Shown here: positions 1-64,000 of the stretch, one piece after another
Position numbering within the stretch: the stretch's first letter is position 1
How the letters are laid out: each line of letters starts with the position of its first letter
Assembly: GCA_030272155.1 (NCBI GenBank)
Contig: CP126195.1
Coordinates: 1,905,001 to 1,969,000 of the forward strand
Length of the DNA stretch: 64,000 nucleotides
Direction of reading: 5' to 3'
Source of the DNA: Tetradesmus obliquus
Taxonomy: Eukaryota; Chlorophyta; Chlorophyceae; Sphaeropleales; Scenedesmaceae
Program-made: the position numbers and the translations under genes
The notes under the pieces: generated by a model
The model's database searches: none
Told to the model about the DNA's origin: nothing
The model's input: the letters and a program-made list of their open reading frames with translations, nothing else

Positions 1-3000
1 GCCTGTGCCGCATGCCACTGACACGTCACCCTGCGGGCAGGTGCTGGCCGCAACCAGCAGGTCTGTCTCCGCTGCAGCAGCAGCAGCAGCAGCAGCAAAG
101 CAGTAAACTTGGATCAGTGCATCTCACACGTGGTACCATCCAACAGTGTAGTCACACACACTGGCGGGGTCTTGATGTAGTGCTGGTGGCTGCCACGAGG
201 CGCTGCATGCACACAGCAAACCTTAGCACATGATTGCAGACATTCCTCCTAACACGCAGTGAACCCTTTCACTTGAATGCAGAACACCCTCTTAACACGC
301 AGCAAAACCTTTCACATGATTGCAGACTACCCTCCTAAGACTTCCCACCTAGGAACTCGATGTAGTCGCCCACGCGCACTGGCGAGGGTTTTGTAAAGTA
401 CTGATTGGTGTCTCTTGTGAAGCCTGTGCACATGAATGCGTTGAGCACGTCGTGCACATCCTCCTCAGCCAGGCCAAAAGGAGCCACAGCCCGCGTCAGG
501 TTGGAGTGGCTGCAATTGCACAGCAAAGCACCATTAGGTAAGCATGACAGATGTTACAGGCTGTGCATCTTGCACATCCTCCTCAGCCAGCCCGAAGGGA
601 GCCACAGCCCTTGTCAGGTTGGAGTGGCTGCAAGGGATCAATGCATAAGCATAACAGGAGTCACGGCATCGTCGGCAGACAAAGCAAGACTCAAGCGGCA
701 GGCATCATCAGAGAAGCAGGAAACAGGGGCTACATGCTGCAGAATCCAGCACCAGCTGAGGATGGGGTCAGTCACAGTGATGTATTATGGTGTGAACGCA
801 GCATCGTGCACATCTTTCTCGGCCAGCCCACAGGGTGCCACAGCCCGTGTCATGTTGGAGTGGCTGCCATTGACAACCAGACACCCATAGATAAGCATGG
901 CAAATGTTCCAGGCTGTGGGTATATCATTCTTCCTCAGCCAGCCCAAAAGGCGCCACAGCCCGTGTCATTTTGGAGTGGCCGGGAGGCATCATTTGCATT
1001 GGATAAGCATGACAAGAGGTAAATGCTGTTGATCTGGTTTTAACTCAAGATGGGGCGAGCCACAAAAGATGGAACGCAGTGTATGTTGCTGAGGATGCTT
1101 TGTCTGTGACAGAAGGCAGTTGCTGTTGACAAGCAGGGGTGCTGCGGTTGTGAGCAAGCAGCTGCCGCAGTGCAGGCATGCTCACACAGCACACGTTCAT
1201 GCTGGCTGCAAGAAGAGCAGCTGACAGCAACCAGCTGCAGCAGGCATGCTCACCAGCACACATTCATGTCCTGGCCAGTCAGCAGCCAGTTGGTGTAGGG
1301 GTCACACCTGCAGGAAGCAGCCACATATTGCTGTGTGTGTTTTGAGGCGCTGCCGGTGCTGCGTCCATATATAAAATCATGGCAGTGCGCAGCTGTTGCA
1401 GCAGCAATTGCTGCAGACCCCATCAGCGTGAAGCAGTGGCAGCTGCAGCACATGGAACAAATATGGTGGAACTGCGGCTGCCACAGCTGCTGCTGCTGCT
1501 GCTTGCTGCCATGTCATGCTGTGTGCTGGCATGCTGTGCTAGTCCTGCCTTCTCAGTCGACAGCACTCTCGCACCTGCTGCCGATGACGTGGTGCACGCT
1601 GCTGCTGCTGCTGCTGCTGCTGCTGCTGCTGCTGACTATGGCACATCTTCGCGCCCTCGCACCTGCTGCCGATGACGTCGTGCACGCTGGCGCCGTCCCT
1701 GTCAATGCCATACTGGATGCTCTCGTACGTGATGGTGGCCAGCGGCCGCATGTAGGGGAAGCACGACCACAGCCTGCACAGCAGCAATGCACACATGGCG
1801 TGCACGTAGTCATCAACAGACCGCGTTGCTAGACTGCTTACAAGCACTTTATTGTATTGTGATGGCTGGCCTGTGGTCGCATGTAGGGGAAGCATGACCA
1901 CAGCCTGCGTTAAGCCACAGGAACACGTACTTTGTTTGATGCAAAGCAAAAACCAGGTGCACATATGCCACAGCACAAAGTATTGGCATTGCTGGTGGGA
2001 ACACACACGCTTCGCTGCTCAGCAAGGCTTGCTGGTGGGCTGCAGCAACTGGCAGCTTCTGTGAAGAGCTGCGCGCTGCAGCTGCATATTGAAACGCTGC
2101 GCTGCTGCCATGTCGTGCATGCCCTTACCTGTCGTGTGCCATGATGCGCTGTGCGTGCAGCTGGCGCGTGCCTTCATAGCGTGCAGCCGGCGTGTCTACC
2201 AGTTACAGTGTCTCTCACCTGTCGTATGCCTTAAGGTGTGATGCATGCAGCTGGCGCGTCTTTGATGCGTAGAAGCGCTCCTTGGGGTTGTGCAAGCTCC
2301 AGAAGTTCACGTCAGCCACCTGGGGCCCCTCGGTGCAGCAGATGCGGAACAGCTGCCCTGCCTTCACCTCCCAAGCCAGGCCATCCCTGCAGCAGCGCAG
2401 CAACCATATATGACATTTCAAGGTAAAAGGATGGGTTACCAATGGGTTGTTACTGCAGGCACTAAAGAGCGTCAGCCACCTGGGGCCCTTTTGTGCAGGT
2501 GATGCGGAACAGCTGGCCCGCCTTCACCTCCCAGGCCCTGCCATCCCTGCAGCAGCACAGAGCAAGCAGTTATGAAGTTTCAAGGTAAAAAGGATGGGTT
2601 GCCAATGGGTTGTTATTGCAGGCAGCACAAAGCGTCAGCCACCTGACGGCCCTCACTGCAGCAGATGCGGAACAGCTGGCCTGCTTTGACTTCCCAGGCC
2701 TTACCGTCCCTGCAATGCAGCAGTACATTGCAGCAGTACAGCGCAAGCAGATATTAAAAAGGTAAGGTATGAGGCATGTTCCACCAATGGTGTTTTACCG
2801 AAGGCACTAAAGAGTGTCAGCCACCTGGGGCCCTTTTGTGCAGGTGATGCGGAACAGCTGCCCTGCCTGCACCTCCCAGGCCCTGCCGTCCCTGCAGCAG
2901 TACAGCGCAAGCAGAGGAGATTTGGCGGGAGGCACGTGAAGGGCAGCATGTGATCGAAGCAGGTGACGCGGAACGGCTGCCCTGCCTGCACCTCCCAGGC

Positions 3001-61500: not shown

Positions 61501-64000
61501 ACATCAAACTGTTTGACTTCATTCACAATGTAAATTTGTCGCGTTGGTGGACACAGCAGGCAGCTGCTTCGGAAACGAGTGGAATGTTGTGTGCAATGTT
61601 GCGCTGCTGTTACTCATACCACTTGGAATCAAAATAGGTGCACCTTTGCTGCTGCCACCACCGCCACTGCTGCTGCTGCTGCTGCCGCCGCCACACTTGC
61701 AACTGCCCCAGGCTGCGCCAATGGACCGGCACCAACGGCATGTCCAGCTGGGGAGGGCCCGGCACTAATGGCCAGCCTGGCCCAGAATGCTTGAGCTGCT
61801 TCAAGGACGGCATTGACTTTACTGACCCGCCAAAAGGATTCCAGACGCCAGAGCACAGCTTGACTAATCCCACGTCATTCCTGGATGCAGCAATCGTGTT
61901 CACCGACACAGTCATTTCCGGTGTGGCTGGGCAGAAGGCTGTGGTGGTGCTCGTCAGGTGCGCAACAGCAATGTACACGACCCGCTGTATCACGAAACAT
62001 TGCAGCCACTTTCAACTTTATGGCTTGCAGCAGAGATGATGCCAATCCCTTCCACTATGGCCCCGCAGATTGTGATTCATGCTGCTGCATGCTCAGAGAA
62101 TTTGTTGTGTGCAAACCTAACTGGTGTTGATTGGAAACTGCACTTGCAGGGCCACTGCCAGTGCAATTCAGGCATCACAGTGGGTCAGCAACCTTGGTGA
62201 GTGGTTACTGACTTGAGCATAAACCGTTGATCAGCCTGATTCATACAGAAGACAGCCGAACTCTGCAATGTCTCTTGTTTCTTGTCATACTGATGAGGTG
62301 CACCTCAGTACAAAGCCATAGGCCAGAATCATGTGTCACAATGTTGTCCAAATATGAAAAATTTATTGCTAAAGCATCTCACCCGCTGCTTCTCACCCGT
62401 GCCATCTCTGCTGTTTGTGATGTCGCAGGTTTCTGCGTGGCGGACAGCGGCAACCTCGTACCTCCGACAACTGATCCAGCCTCTGGCAACGTGTGTAATG
62501 GCTGGGAGACTCCCGTGGATGATTTGATTGCCCTGGGGCTGCAGGCGGAGATTGTGCGGAGGCTGACTGCACTGCCGGCTGCTAACCGGACCGTCTACGT
62601 CGTTGGGCACTCCAGGGGAGGTGCACTGGTGAGCGGCGCAACAGCATGTGCAATATCAACCGGCACACTCAAGCAAAAGGAGCACATACTAGCACTGCAT
62701 GTGGCTGTGTCTATCATGCAACGAATGCTACCATCAGGGGCTCCCAGCTGCGCCTGGTGCTTGCTGCTTTGTTCACCCAATCAACACTGTACATGTGTGC
62801 CTGGGGCTGCCTCGCTCACTGCTGCACACAGGCCTCCGTGTTTGCTGCCAAGCTGCTTGCGCTGCAAGCTTCTGGGGGGCTGCCTACTTACAGCGGTGCT
62901 GCAGTAGACCAGATCAAGCTGTACACGTTTGGTAGCCCGCGTGCTGGAGACACCTACTTTGCTGCTTATCTGGAGAACAGGATGAGCGAGCGCTACAGGT
63001 GGGGAGGAGCGTTGGTTGCTTACGCCTGCAGTTTGGGATGCTTTGTTATCAATCAAGTGCTTGCTGCATTCTAGCAGTATCTCCAGGGATTTTAACTGTG
63101 GTGCGTTGCTCATTCCGTTGTTGCTCGAGAGCTTCTGCCCTGGGCCAGTTACAGCTGAGCTGAAAGCCGCCAATGCAACAGCGTCTGCCATGCACACCTA
63201 CTTATGCGGTAGCGTTGCATTCTGCAGCAGCAGCTCACCGGCTGTGCCTTGTTCTCTGCCTGCTGCTGCTGCTGCTGCTGCCGCACCCAGGGTTGTGACG
63301 CGTTATGACGCCGTCCCTACTGAACCGTCTGAGAGCAGCGGCTACAGCCACTACAGGCCCTCCATCTGGTGAGTGCATGTATGGCATATATACAAACATG
63401 CAACGGAAACAGTGTCCACTTGTGTTGGTTGCAAGGGCTTCAGCCACTACAGGCCCTCCATCTGGTGAGAGCAGCATGCAGCGTGGCCCTAGCTCAGAAG
63501 ATAGCTGCATGCAGCAGAAGCAGGCAGCCAACCGGCTGTGAAAACAGCTACAGCCACTTCAGGCCCTTCATCTGGTGAGAGCAGCATGCAGCATGGCCGC
63601 CACTTAGGGCCTAGCCCCAGAAGTTAGCTGCATGCAGCAGAAGCAGGCAGCCAATCTGCTGTGACAACAGCTACAGCCACTTCAGGCCCTCCATCTGGTG
63701 AGTGATGTAGCCTTTTGGGGAATTCATGGCAGGAGCCGGGCTCAACAGGGTGGACGGTGGGTGCTGCTCTCAACTGTTTCCTACCTCCGAAATCATGATG
63801 ATACGGGTACGTCACCATGACTTACCAATCAACTTTAAAAACATATGGGTTGGTATATGATGCTGTGTGCGGCTGCGTCTGGGCTGTGTGCAGGTACCGT
63901 GACAGCAGCGGCAACCTGACGCCCAGCCCTACCCTAGGCTGCGTGCTGTTCAACCAAAACCAGCTGACCACGCCACAGCAGTCATGCTTCATTTCCTGCA
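58513..64000 (+). CDS. Secreted class-3 lipase-like protein L4, cut by right edge
   Basis: Visible exons: 58513-58660, 58987-59070, 59347-59417, 59685-60200, 60485-60546, 61293-61481, 61712-61957, 62150-62196, 62429-62628, 62832-62998, 63291-63368 and 63894-64000 (open). All junctions keep frame. The start is the ATG in GCCAAAATGG, the same context as L1; an in-frame ATG 21 nt upstream is possible. Signal peptide with LMLVVALVAAAAVAAQ, family N-terminal domain with WGGFTPRPTIAFQCQ, exon 4 with two N-glycosylation sites (NIT, NST), then the lipase domain with VGHSRGGAL (Ser516), YTFGSPRAGD and RYDAVPTEPS (Asp583). The usual FR before AT is VR here (VVVLVRATAS). The catalytic His exon lies outside the window. 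Confidence 0.87.
58757..58815. repeat. (AGTAGC)n hexamer tract in L4 intron 1
   Basis: About nine to ten AGTAGC units. Confidence 0.93.
60605..61045. repeat. ~46-bp tandem repeat in L4 intron 5
   Basis: About nine to ten units sharing TTTGCATGGTGCTGCAGCCA and TGCTTTGCATGCTG, some units shortened. It occupies the intron that holds the (TG)n in L2. Confidence 0.93.
63425..63700 (+). repeat. Three tail-echoes of L4 exon 11
   Basis: Copies ending at about 63465, 63573 and 63698 repeat AGCCACT(A/T)CAGGCCC and T.CATCTG followed by GTGAGA or GTGAGT. Each is a plausible decoy 5' splice site. Confidence 0.88.

Follow-up and report, generated by a model that had tools for sequence, protein, structure and literature searches.

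Partial copies of exon ends with fixed polarity and sense-conserving divergence in introns of the green alga Tetradesmus obliquus

The window analysed here, by which we mean the whole 64,000-nucleotide stretch at bases 1,905,001-1,969,000 of contig 5 of Tetradesmus obliquus (genome of 104.66 Mb in 17 contigs), has a G+C content of about 55% and carries genes for a DUF1989 protein, a peroxiredoxin, a histone deacetylase and, probably, several class-3 lipases. For this species, Table 1 of PMC5966456 gives a genome of 108 Mb, a GC content of 57% and a mean intron length of 462 bp. Genes in the window, as well as conserved genes elsewhere in the genome, are accompanied by partial copies of an exon start or exon end located outside the live exon, which we term echoes. 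Copies of exon starts lie upstream of their exon and copies of exon ends lie downstream, and the echoes differ from the live exons mainly at third codon positions.

After masking of microsatellites, a threshold of E<=1e-4 yields 190 direct repeat pairs in the window, of which 99 are no more than 600 bp apart, while inverted pairs of separate segments were absent at the same threshold (palindromes uncounted; a planted inverted control was detected by the method). The first-pass annotation had described truncated copies of exon boundaries in introns of all four kinds of gene, and for the peroxiredoxin and the deacetylase this is borne out by 20 echoes around seven exons whose boundaries were read from the sequence, all 20 having starts upstream and ends downstream. 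In the peroxiredoxin gene (plus strand), the live exon at 6243-6372, which reads DPTREIAV...KLSL and is followed by a GTGAGG donor, was assigned from its frame and boundaries together with a Pfam AhpC-TSA match below the cut-off (E=0.0037). Upstream of it lie a start echo with acceptor at 6075-6153, nine of whose ten mismatches fall at codon position 3, and a second start echo at 5957-6028, and downstream lies an end echo at 6472-6520 with GC in place of the exon's GT donor. Another live exon, ending in NNHADQ (6823-6943; Pfam 1-cysPrx_C below the cut-off, E=0.0056), is preceded by two start echoes at 6585-6647 and 6707-6781 with a CTG tract between them, and is followed by an end echo with a GTGAGC donor at 7055-7107. 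As well, a start echo of the exon at 7341-7440 is located at 7257-7306.

The deacetylase gene lies on the minus strand, where upstream means higher coordinates. Its live exon ending in FEYC (14547-14716; Pfam Hist_deacetyl below the cut-off, E=0.0012) has three start echoes (14752-14813, 14870-14932 and 14986-15030) and five end echoes (14440-14494, 14328-14384, 14244-14296, 14125-14180 and 13959-14014), all five of the latter lying downstream and being followed by a GTG donor. The live exon ending in LLKYHA (13522-13695) has a start echo at 13800-13869 and end echoes within 13136-13444, and a start echo at 11178-11252 belongs to an exon at about 10942-11089. The terminal exon with its stop codon (about 10064-10222) is accompanied by five downstream copies within 8958-10222, with no donor involved. 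The stop codon is kept in all five copies and four of them are preceded by CAG; the copy at 9571-9737 has 11 mismatches at position 3 and none at positions 1 and 2 in 159 aligned bp, with one gap column. Within 10,226-10,484 on the minus strand, another deacetylase exon has an upstream copy with a period of 158 bp and 91% identity.

Repeat coordinates and translations also support copies in the DUF1989 gene, which stands outside the counted set. Here an exon on the minus strand (Pfam PF09347, E=3.6e-11) is preceded by four partial copies located from 2470 to 3023 (exon and copies, 2248-3023), and a probable second exon (with its copies, 338-1018, minus strand) has upstream copies near 568-633, 804-867 and 929-980. 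In the class-3 lipase loci, repeats are located at 32,727-33,132 and at 41,404-41,651 (plus strand, period 153 bp), and they are only candidate copies of exon ends. The plus strand of 30,000-62,000 probably holds a row of four class-3 lipase genes, identified by recurring peptides, at about 30-36, 39-45, 49.5-54.7 and 60-62+ kb; Lipase_3 matches exons in each of the first three genes, in one case below the cut-off. A perfect (TG) run of 930 bp (465 copies) occupies 40,076-41,005, and near-perfect minisatellites, far more uniform than the echo arrays, occur at 8,163-8,370 (34 bp x 6) and 19,164-19,313 (22 bp x 7).

Outside the window, we surveyed 14 loci of chaperonins (PF00118) and aldehyde dehydrogenases (PF00171), families picked for their conservation and not for echoes. 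Two further chaperonin loci, holding seven of the 61 chaperonin profile hits, were left out of the survey. Among the 54 hits in the surveyed chaperonin loci, four (L029 at 1723 and 1869, L030 at 1738 and L035 at 4921) were set as echoes before counting, being shorter than a fuller neighbour and overlapping it in the profile, and for later counts, including the codon-position counts, only the first 187 bp of the hit in L035 at 4254 were kept. Copies were found at 31 of the 63 profile-anchored exons. Before duplicates were merged there were 103 copies, comprising 44 left parts upstream, 58 right parts downstream and a single contrary one, a 28 bp match in L010; none of the 103 covers a whole anchored exon. 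After merging and addition of the two window genes, 117 of 118 echoes have starts upstream and ends downstream, so the fixed polarity proposed from the window alone holds in unselected genes. A polarity count from profile hits alone was discarded, since the profile ranges of adjacent exons overlap. Two of about nine HSP70 loci (C17 and C10) were analysed afterwards by the identical method and gave the same polarity in seven of seven echoes; two of the 21 hits in L043 and L044 were excluded as exons (short, and overlapping a fuller neighbour in the profile), and C17 was no blind hold-out, as its hit list already showed these two short upstream hits when it was chosen, while that of C10 showed none.

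When pseudo-exons of 160 bp were scattered randomly over 14 of 15 arbitrary regions (the satellite region L018 being excluded), 601 of 927 cases showed the same polarity, which means that a short tandem period explains part of the polarity and that real exons go well beyond it. Direct orientation prevails as in the window: across nine chaperonin loci, 180 of the local pairs are direct and 2 are inverted. Moreover, a test independent of gene models found repeat pairs with strongly three-periodic mismatches in excess of chance in every set, namely 18 of 82 pairs in the window (3.0 expected), seven of 72 in arbitrary regions (1.4 expected), ten of 51 in dehydrogenase loci (1.1 expected) and 12 of 95 in chaperonin loci (3.4 expected). 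Exon-end echoes are thus real and widespread beyond the window, being present at 49 of 126 exon sides in the 14 loci and at six of 38 in the two HSP70 loci. They are clumped by gene (permutation p=0.0002), with 10 of 12 exon sides carrying echoes in one chaperonin gene and none of 12 in another. Four loci (L034, L036, L037 and L009) have no echo at any anchored exon side at the thresholds used, and one chaperonin family includes both the echo-free L034 and the echo-rich L029. Of the HSP70 genes L044 and L043, one has a single echo in 10 anchored exons and the other has six in nine.

The echoes diverge from their exons in a sense-conserving way, a feature that the first-pass annotation had missed. 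Across the 118 echoes, mismatches amount to 140 of 2,475 sites at codon position 1, 120 of 2,469 at position 2 and 516 of 2,460 at position 3, that is, 5% at positions 1-2 and 21% at position 3. Four-fold sites are mismatched in 280 of 1,164 cases, and only three of 2,399 echo codons are stops, while some copies carry frameshifts. For a freely evolving echo compared with a constrained exon, the rate at positions 1-2 is expected to be at least about half of that at position 3, whereas the observed ratio is 0.25 (bootstrap by gene 0.20-0.35). When only the nearest copy per array is taken, 39 of 53 arrays have an excess at position 3, six have fewer mismatches there and eight are tied. The HSP70 echoes point in the same direction more weakly, with mismatches at 13 of 155, 7 of 155 and 30 of 153 sites for positions 1, 2 and 3. 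The GC content of third positions is 78% for echoes and 80% for exons. Hypermutability of position 3 was considered as a cause and found no support, since composition gives 0.180 for this position versus 0.187 and 0.197. In 37 alignments extending at least 20 bp beyond the anchored exon, gap columns number 43 per 2,674 inside the exon and 634 per 5,288 outside it. These comparisons of sequence suggest that, for many echoes, protein-level selection may have acted during more than half of the time since they separated from the exon, and that many are not simply dead, which is new and unexpected.

Distances between copies peak at 100-140 bp, and arrays of this kind are common in the genome at large. 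In 150 kb of arbitrary regions, a search of periods of 60 bp and above found 51 array clusters, whose smallest period is 83-156 bp in 35 of the 51. Coding-like sequence occurs in 23 of the 51 clusters versus 654 of 3,783 control stretches, a 2.6-fold enrichment that may come partly from the longer alignability of exon-echo pairs, and six of the 51 clusters lie in one satellite region. By rough extrapolation, coding-associated arrays in the whole genome would be of the order of ten thousand. In the arbitrary regions, DNA without coding appearance also contains arrays of similar period. Locus L018 (contig 2, 4.50-4.51 Mb) is satellite-like, with a period near 311 bp over most of 10 kb. CTG repeats had been proposed to seed the duplications. 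A CTG/CAG run lies beside the echo edge for 14 of 19 echoes in the window genes versus 62 of 400 background stretches, and for 14 of 81 in unselected genes versus 533 of 5,600 (p=0.02; 100 of the 118 echoes were testable, 18 in long alignments being skipped). Such adjacency is strong in the window and weak elsewhere, so CTG seems to be a local aid at most, and seeding by CTG as a general cause was rejected.

Echoes are associated with longer introns. From 23 candidate introns bounded by reading frame and GT-AG, two without a GT-AG solution were dropped, and in the remaining set of 21 the boundaries of at least one, the second intron of L037, are less certain. Common splice motifs in this set include the donors GTGAG and GTGCG and acceptors such as TGCAG. 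Eleven of the 21 introns carry echoes (21 donor-side and 14 acceptor-side copies), and their mean length is 800 bp (377-1,447) versus 308 bp (232-409) for introns without echoes, the latter being near the means of 230-302 bp listed for four other green algae in Table 1 of PMC5966456. Alignable echo makes up 3,413 of the 11,875 intron bp, the exonic part of an echo is 67 bp long on average, and repeat pairs independent of echoes were not found inside the 21 introns. The earlier suggestion that duplication makes introns grow agrees with this difference in length, while duplication as its cause is an inference.

All mapped junctions in these introns are intact, with GT in 20 of 20 donor echoes and AG in 12 of 12 acceptor echoes (three echoes could not be mapped), which upholds the view that the copies create many decoy splice sites; the peroxiredoxin end echo with GC lies outside this set. 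The intactness of every mapped junction raised the idea that the splice sites of echoes are under selection, or that CAG|GT echoes serve in recursive splicing, and this idea was dropped because the low divergence of the same echoes at positions 1-2 (24/855 and 45/574) predicts about the same retention.

The explanation that we regard as probable is frequent local tandem duplication across exon ends, followed by exchange of sequence between the echoes and the live exon or its homologue. Local tandem duplication of units of mostly about 85-155 bp would be frequent in this genome, arising by replication slippage or unequal exchange. Where a unit straddles an exon end, only the copy joined to the exon body would be usable, and spare copies would fall into the intron or the 3' flank. 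If a unit at an exon start is duplicated, the downstream copy would stay joined to the exon, splicing there would restore the protein, and the upstream copy would be left in the intron; duplication at an exon end would give the mirror image. Repeated rounds would build arrays and lengthen introns. The fixed polarity would then follow from the geometry of tandem duplication and purifying selection on the exon-attached copy, with no aiming at splice sites. The terminal deacetylase exon supports polarity by geometry, as its coding end and stop recur downstream without a donor. Thus, of the first-pass claim of repeated tandem duplication of splice-site segments, duplication across junctions stands, while a special process directed at splice sites is unnecessary for the polarity, and targeted duplication was rejected in view of the similar-period arrays in DNA without coding appearance. 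In outline, tandem duplication and selection explain the pattern, and the survival of sense in the echoes is its interesting part. Later exchange with the live exon, on the same chromosome or across homologues, would filter out damaged echoes and leave divergence mostly at third positions.

Several features favour this exchange step, among them the mismatch ratio of 0.25 and the near-equal third-position GC of echoes and exons described above. In 17 arrays, incompatible site pairs number 19 of 30, compared with about 30% in simulations without exchange (p=0.012), and informative sites number 35 versus 25 simulated (p=0.02). When alignments are restricted to 200 bp or less, eight of nine pairs conflict (p=0.039) and the 14 informative sites are not unusual versus 9.4 simulated (p=0.10). 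Third-position differences in arrays with at least two echoes are 392 of 1,829 (21.4%) between echoes and 417 of 1,983 (21.0%) between echo and exon. The site conflicts suggest that copies within arrays may be somewhat reticulate, through exchange with the live exon or through diverged alleles. Other observations weigh against duplication followed by exchange. The exchange step draws on few informative sites with moderate p-values, and site conflict does not rise with distance (9/20, 14/23 and 4/11), contrary to what exchange predicts. A gradient of constraint toward the junction, also expected under exchange, is not clear in the echoes, with a possible exception over the first 15 bp at the acceptor, and four loci have ratios of positions 1-2 to position 3 above 0.5, as dead copies would (L032 0.58, L035 0.60, L011 0.80 and L012 0.52, the last two from two echoes and one echo, respectively).

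Echoes might alternatively be born divergent. Unequal exchange between divergent homologues in a heterozygous diploid, or in a very diverse population, could drop the exon end of another allele into the intron, so that the echo differs at silent sites from the beginning and decays only afterwards, an idea that overlaps with the exchange step of the preferred explanation. Third-position divergence is about 19-21% whether divergence at positions 1-2 is 0 or 7%, and it reaches 27% among the most decayed echoes. Constant constraint fits less well than a model in which echoes start with a fixed divergence of 11.5% and then decay (log-likelihood -2181.7 versus -2169.6, indicative only, as echoes were treated as independent). 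Extensive heterozygosity has been described for diploid Tetradesmus obliquus (PMC12636532). However, this origin requires about 12% silent divergence between homologues, and the spread among loci, from 10.6% in L031 to 28.7% in L010, is more than one allelic value suggests; as an explanation in its own right it is possible and rather doubtful.

A simpler account, in which the spare tandem copy decays neutrally and nothing more happens, would be in keeping with the four loci of high ratio, with the three stops, the frameshifts and the one end echo lacking GT, and with the complete retention of GT and AG, which low divergence at positions 1-2 would predict. Such decay should place at most about half of the mismatches at position 3, whereas 516 of 776 are found there at a position no more mutable by composition. 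The scarcity of gap columns inside the anchored exon argues against it too, and its log-likelihood is clearly worse (-2231 versus -2170, with echoes treated as independent), so we judge it unlikely. It seems slightly less plausible still that the echoes are used, with alternative splicing or alternative last exons bringing them into proteins and selection keeping their sense. Sense conservation, intact decoy splice sites and the terminal deacetylase copies with their kept stop codons and preceding CAG would fit this idea. The absence of whole-exon copies among the 103 runs counter to it, as most echoes thus have a single splice site and cannot be joined in frame to the exon body, and so do the stops or frameshifts in some echoes and an in-frame TAA between the nearer peroxiredoxin start echo and its exon. 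Finally, an assembly artefact, with unresolved haplotypes or read errors placed side by side, would give a local and tandem pattern like that of false duplications, and is very improbable given copy pairs with identities as low as about 70%, arrays of as many as six diverged units, occurrence on many contigs, and CCCTAAA telomere repeats reached at three of the five contig ends read (one other end was all N and one lacked repeats).

According to previous studies, tandem duplication of an exonic segment containing AGGT can yield a new intron (Hellsten et al. 2011 and Gao and Lynch 2009, as cited in PMC3443670). This gain resembles the echoes in that a short tandem duplication within a gene makes copies of splice sites and turns exonic into intronic DNA. 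It differs in that the alga copies an existing junction, which each of the 32 mapped echoes holds with its GT or AG, and in that the existing intron is longer, with up to five echoes per exon side. In a potato RdRp gene (PMC4974935), the duplicated segment likewise spans an intron-exon boundary with the acceptor included, and a new intron arises; this is a single case whose spare exon piece is spliced into the mRNA, whereas the spare piece in the alga appears intronic and the pattern is widespread. Introners are a genome-wide source of intron sequence (PMC9860276), whereas echoes are local. Introner copies are near-identical and dispersed; compared with the rest of the genome, the first 2 kb of the window, including several arrays, gave only matches of 67 bp or less, mostly of CTG/CAG type (the search skips simple repeats and very common words).

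Intronic minisatellites consist of units of roughly 100 bp repeated in tandem inside an intron. Echoes share their head-to-tail arrangement and their units of roughly 10-100+ bp, but in the alga the ends of exons form part of the units, many of which have diverged with their sense conserved. Mutually exclusive exons have both splice sites and occur in transcripts; none of the 103 algal copies spans a whole anchored exon. In silent-cassette systems with one expression site, such as mating-type and antigen genes, partial unexpressed copies are kept intact by exchange with the live site; the likeness of echoes to these is an analogy that implies no programmed switching. The algal pattern departs from known cases in the longer existing intron, in its scale, in arrays of several copies and in a divergence that conserves sense, and a description of the exon-end pattern at genome scale was not found in a search of the open-access literature, judged by titles and the starts of abstracts.

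Intron lengthening is poorly documented, and here one process leaves legible traces at about one third of exon sides in conserved genes. Automatic gene prediction would probably be misled by echoes. Echoes also provide a natural setting in which to test how decoy sites are ignored in splicing and whether intronic copies can come under protein-level selection. Tentatively, and with less confidence than we place in duplication followed by exchange, introns could be regarded as accidental archives of silent exon-end cassettes, kept coding-competent by exchange and feeding silent variants back into the live exons. If true, this would place "non-coding" intron sequence under protein-level selection.

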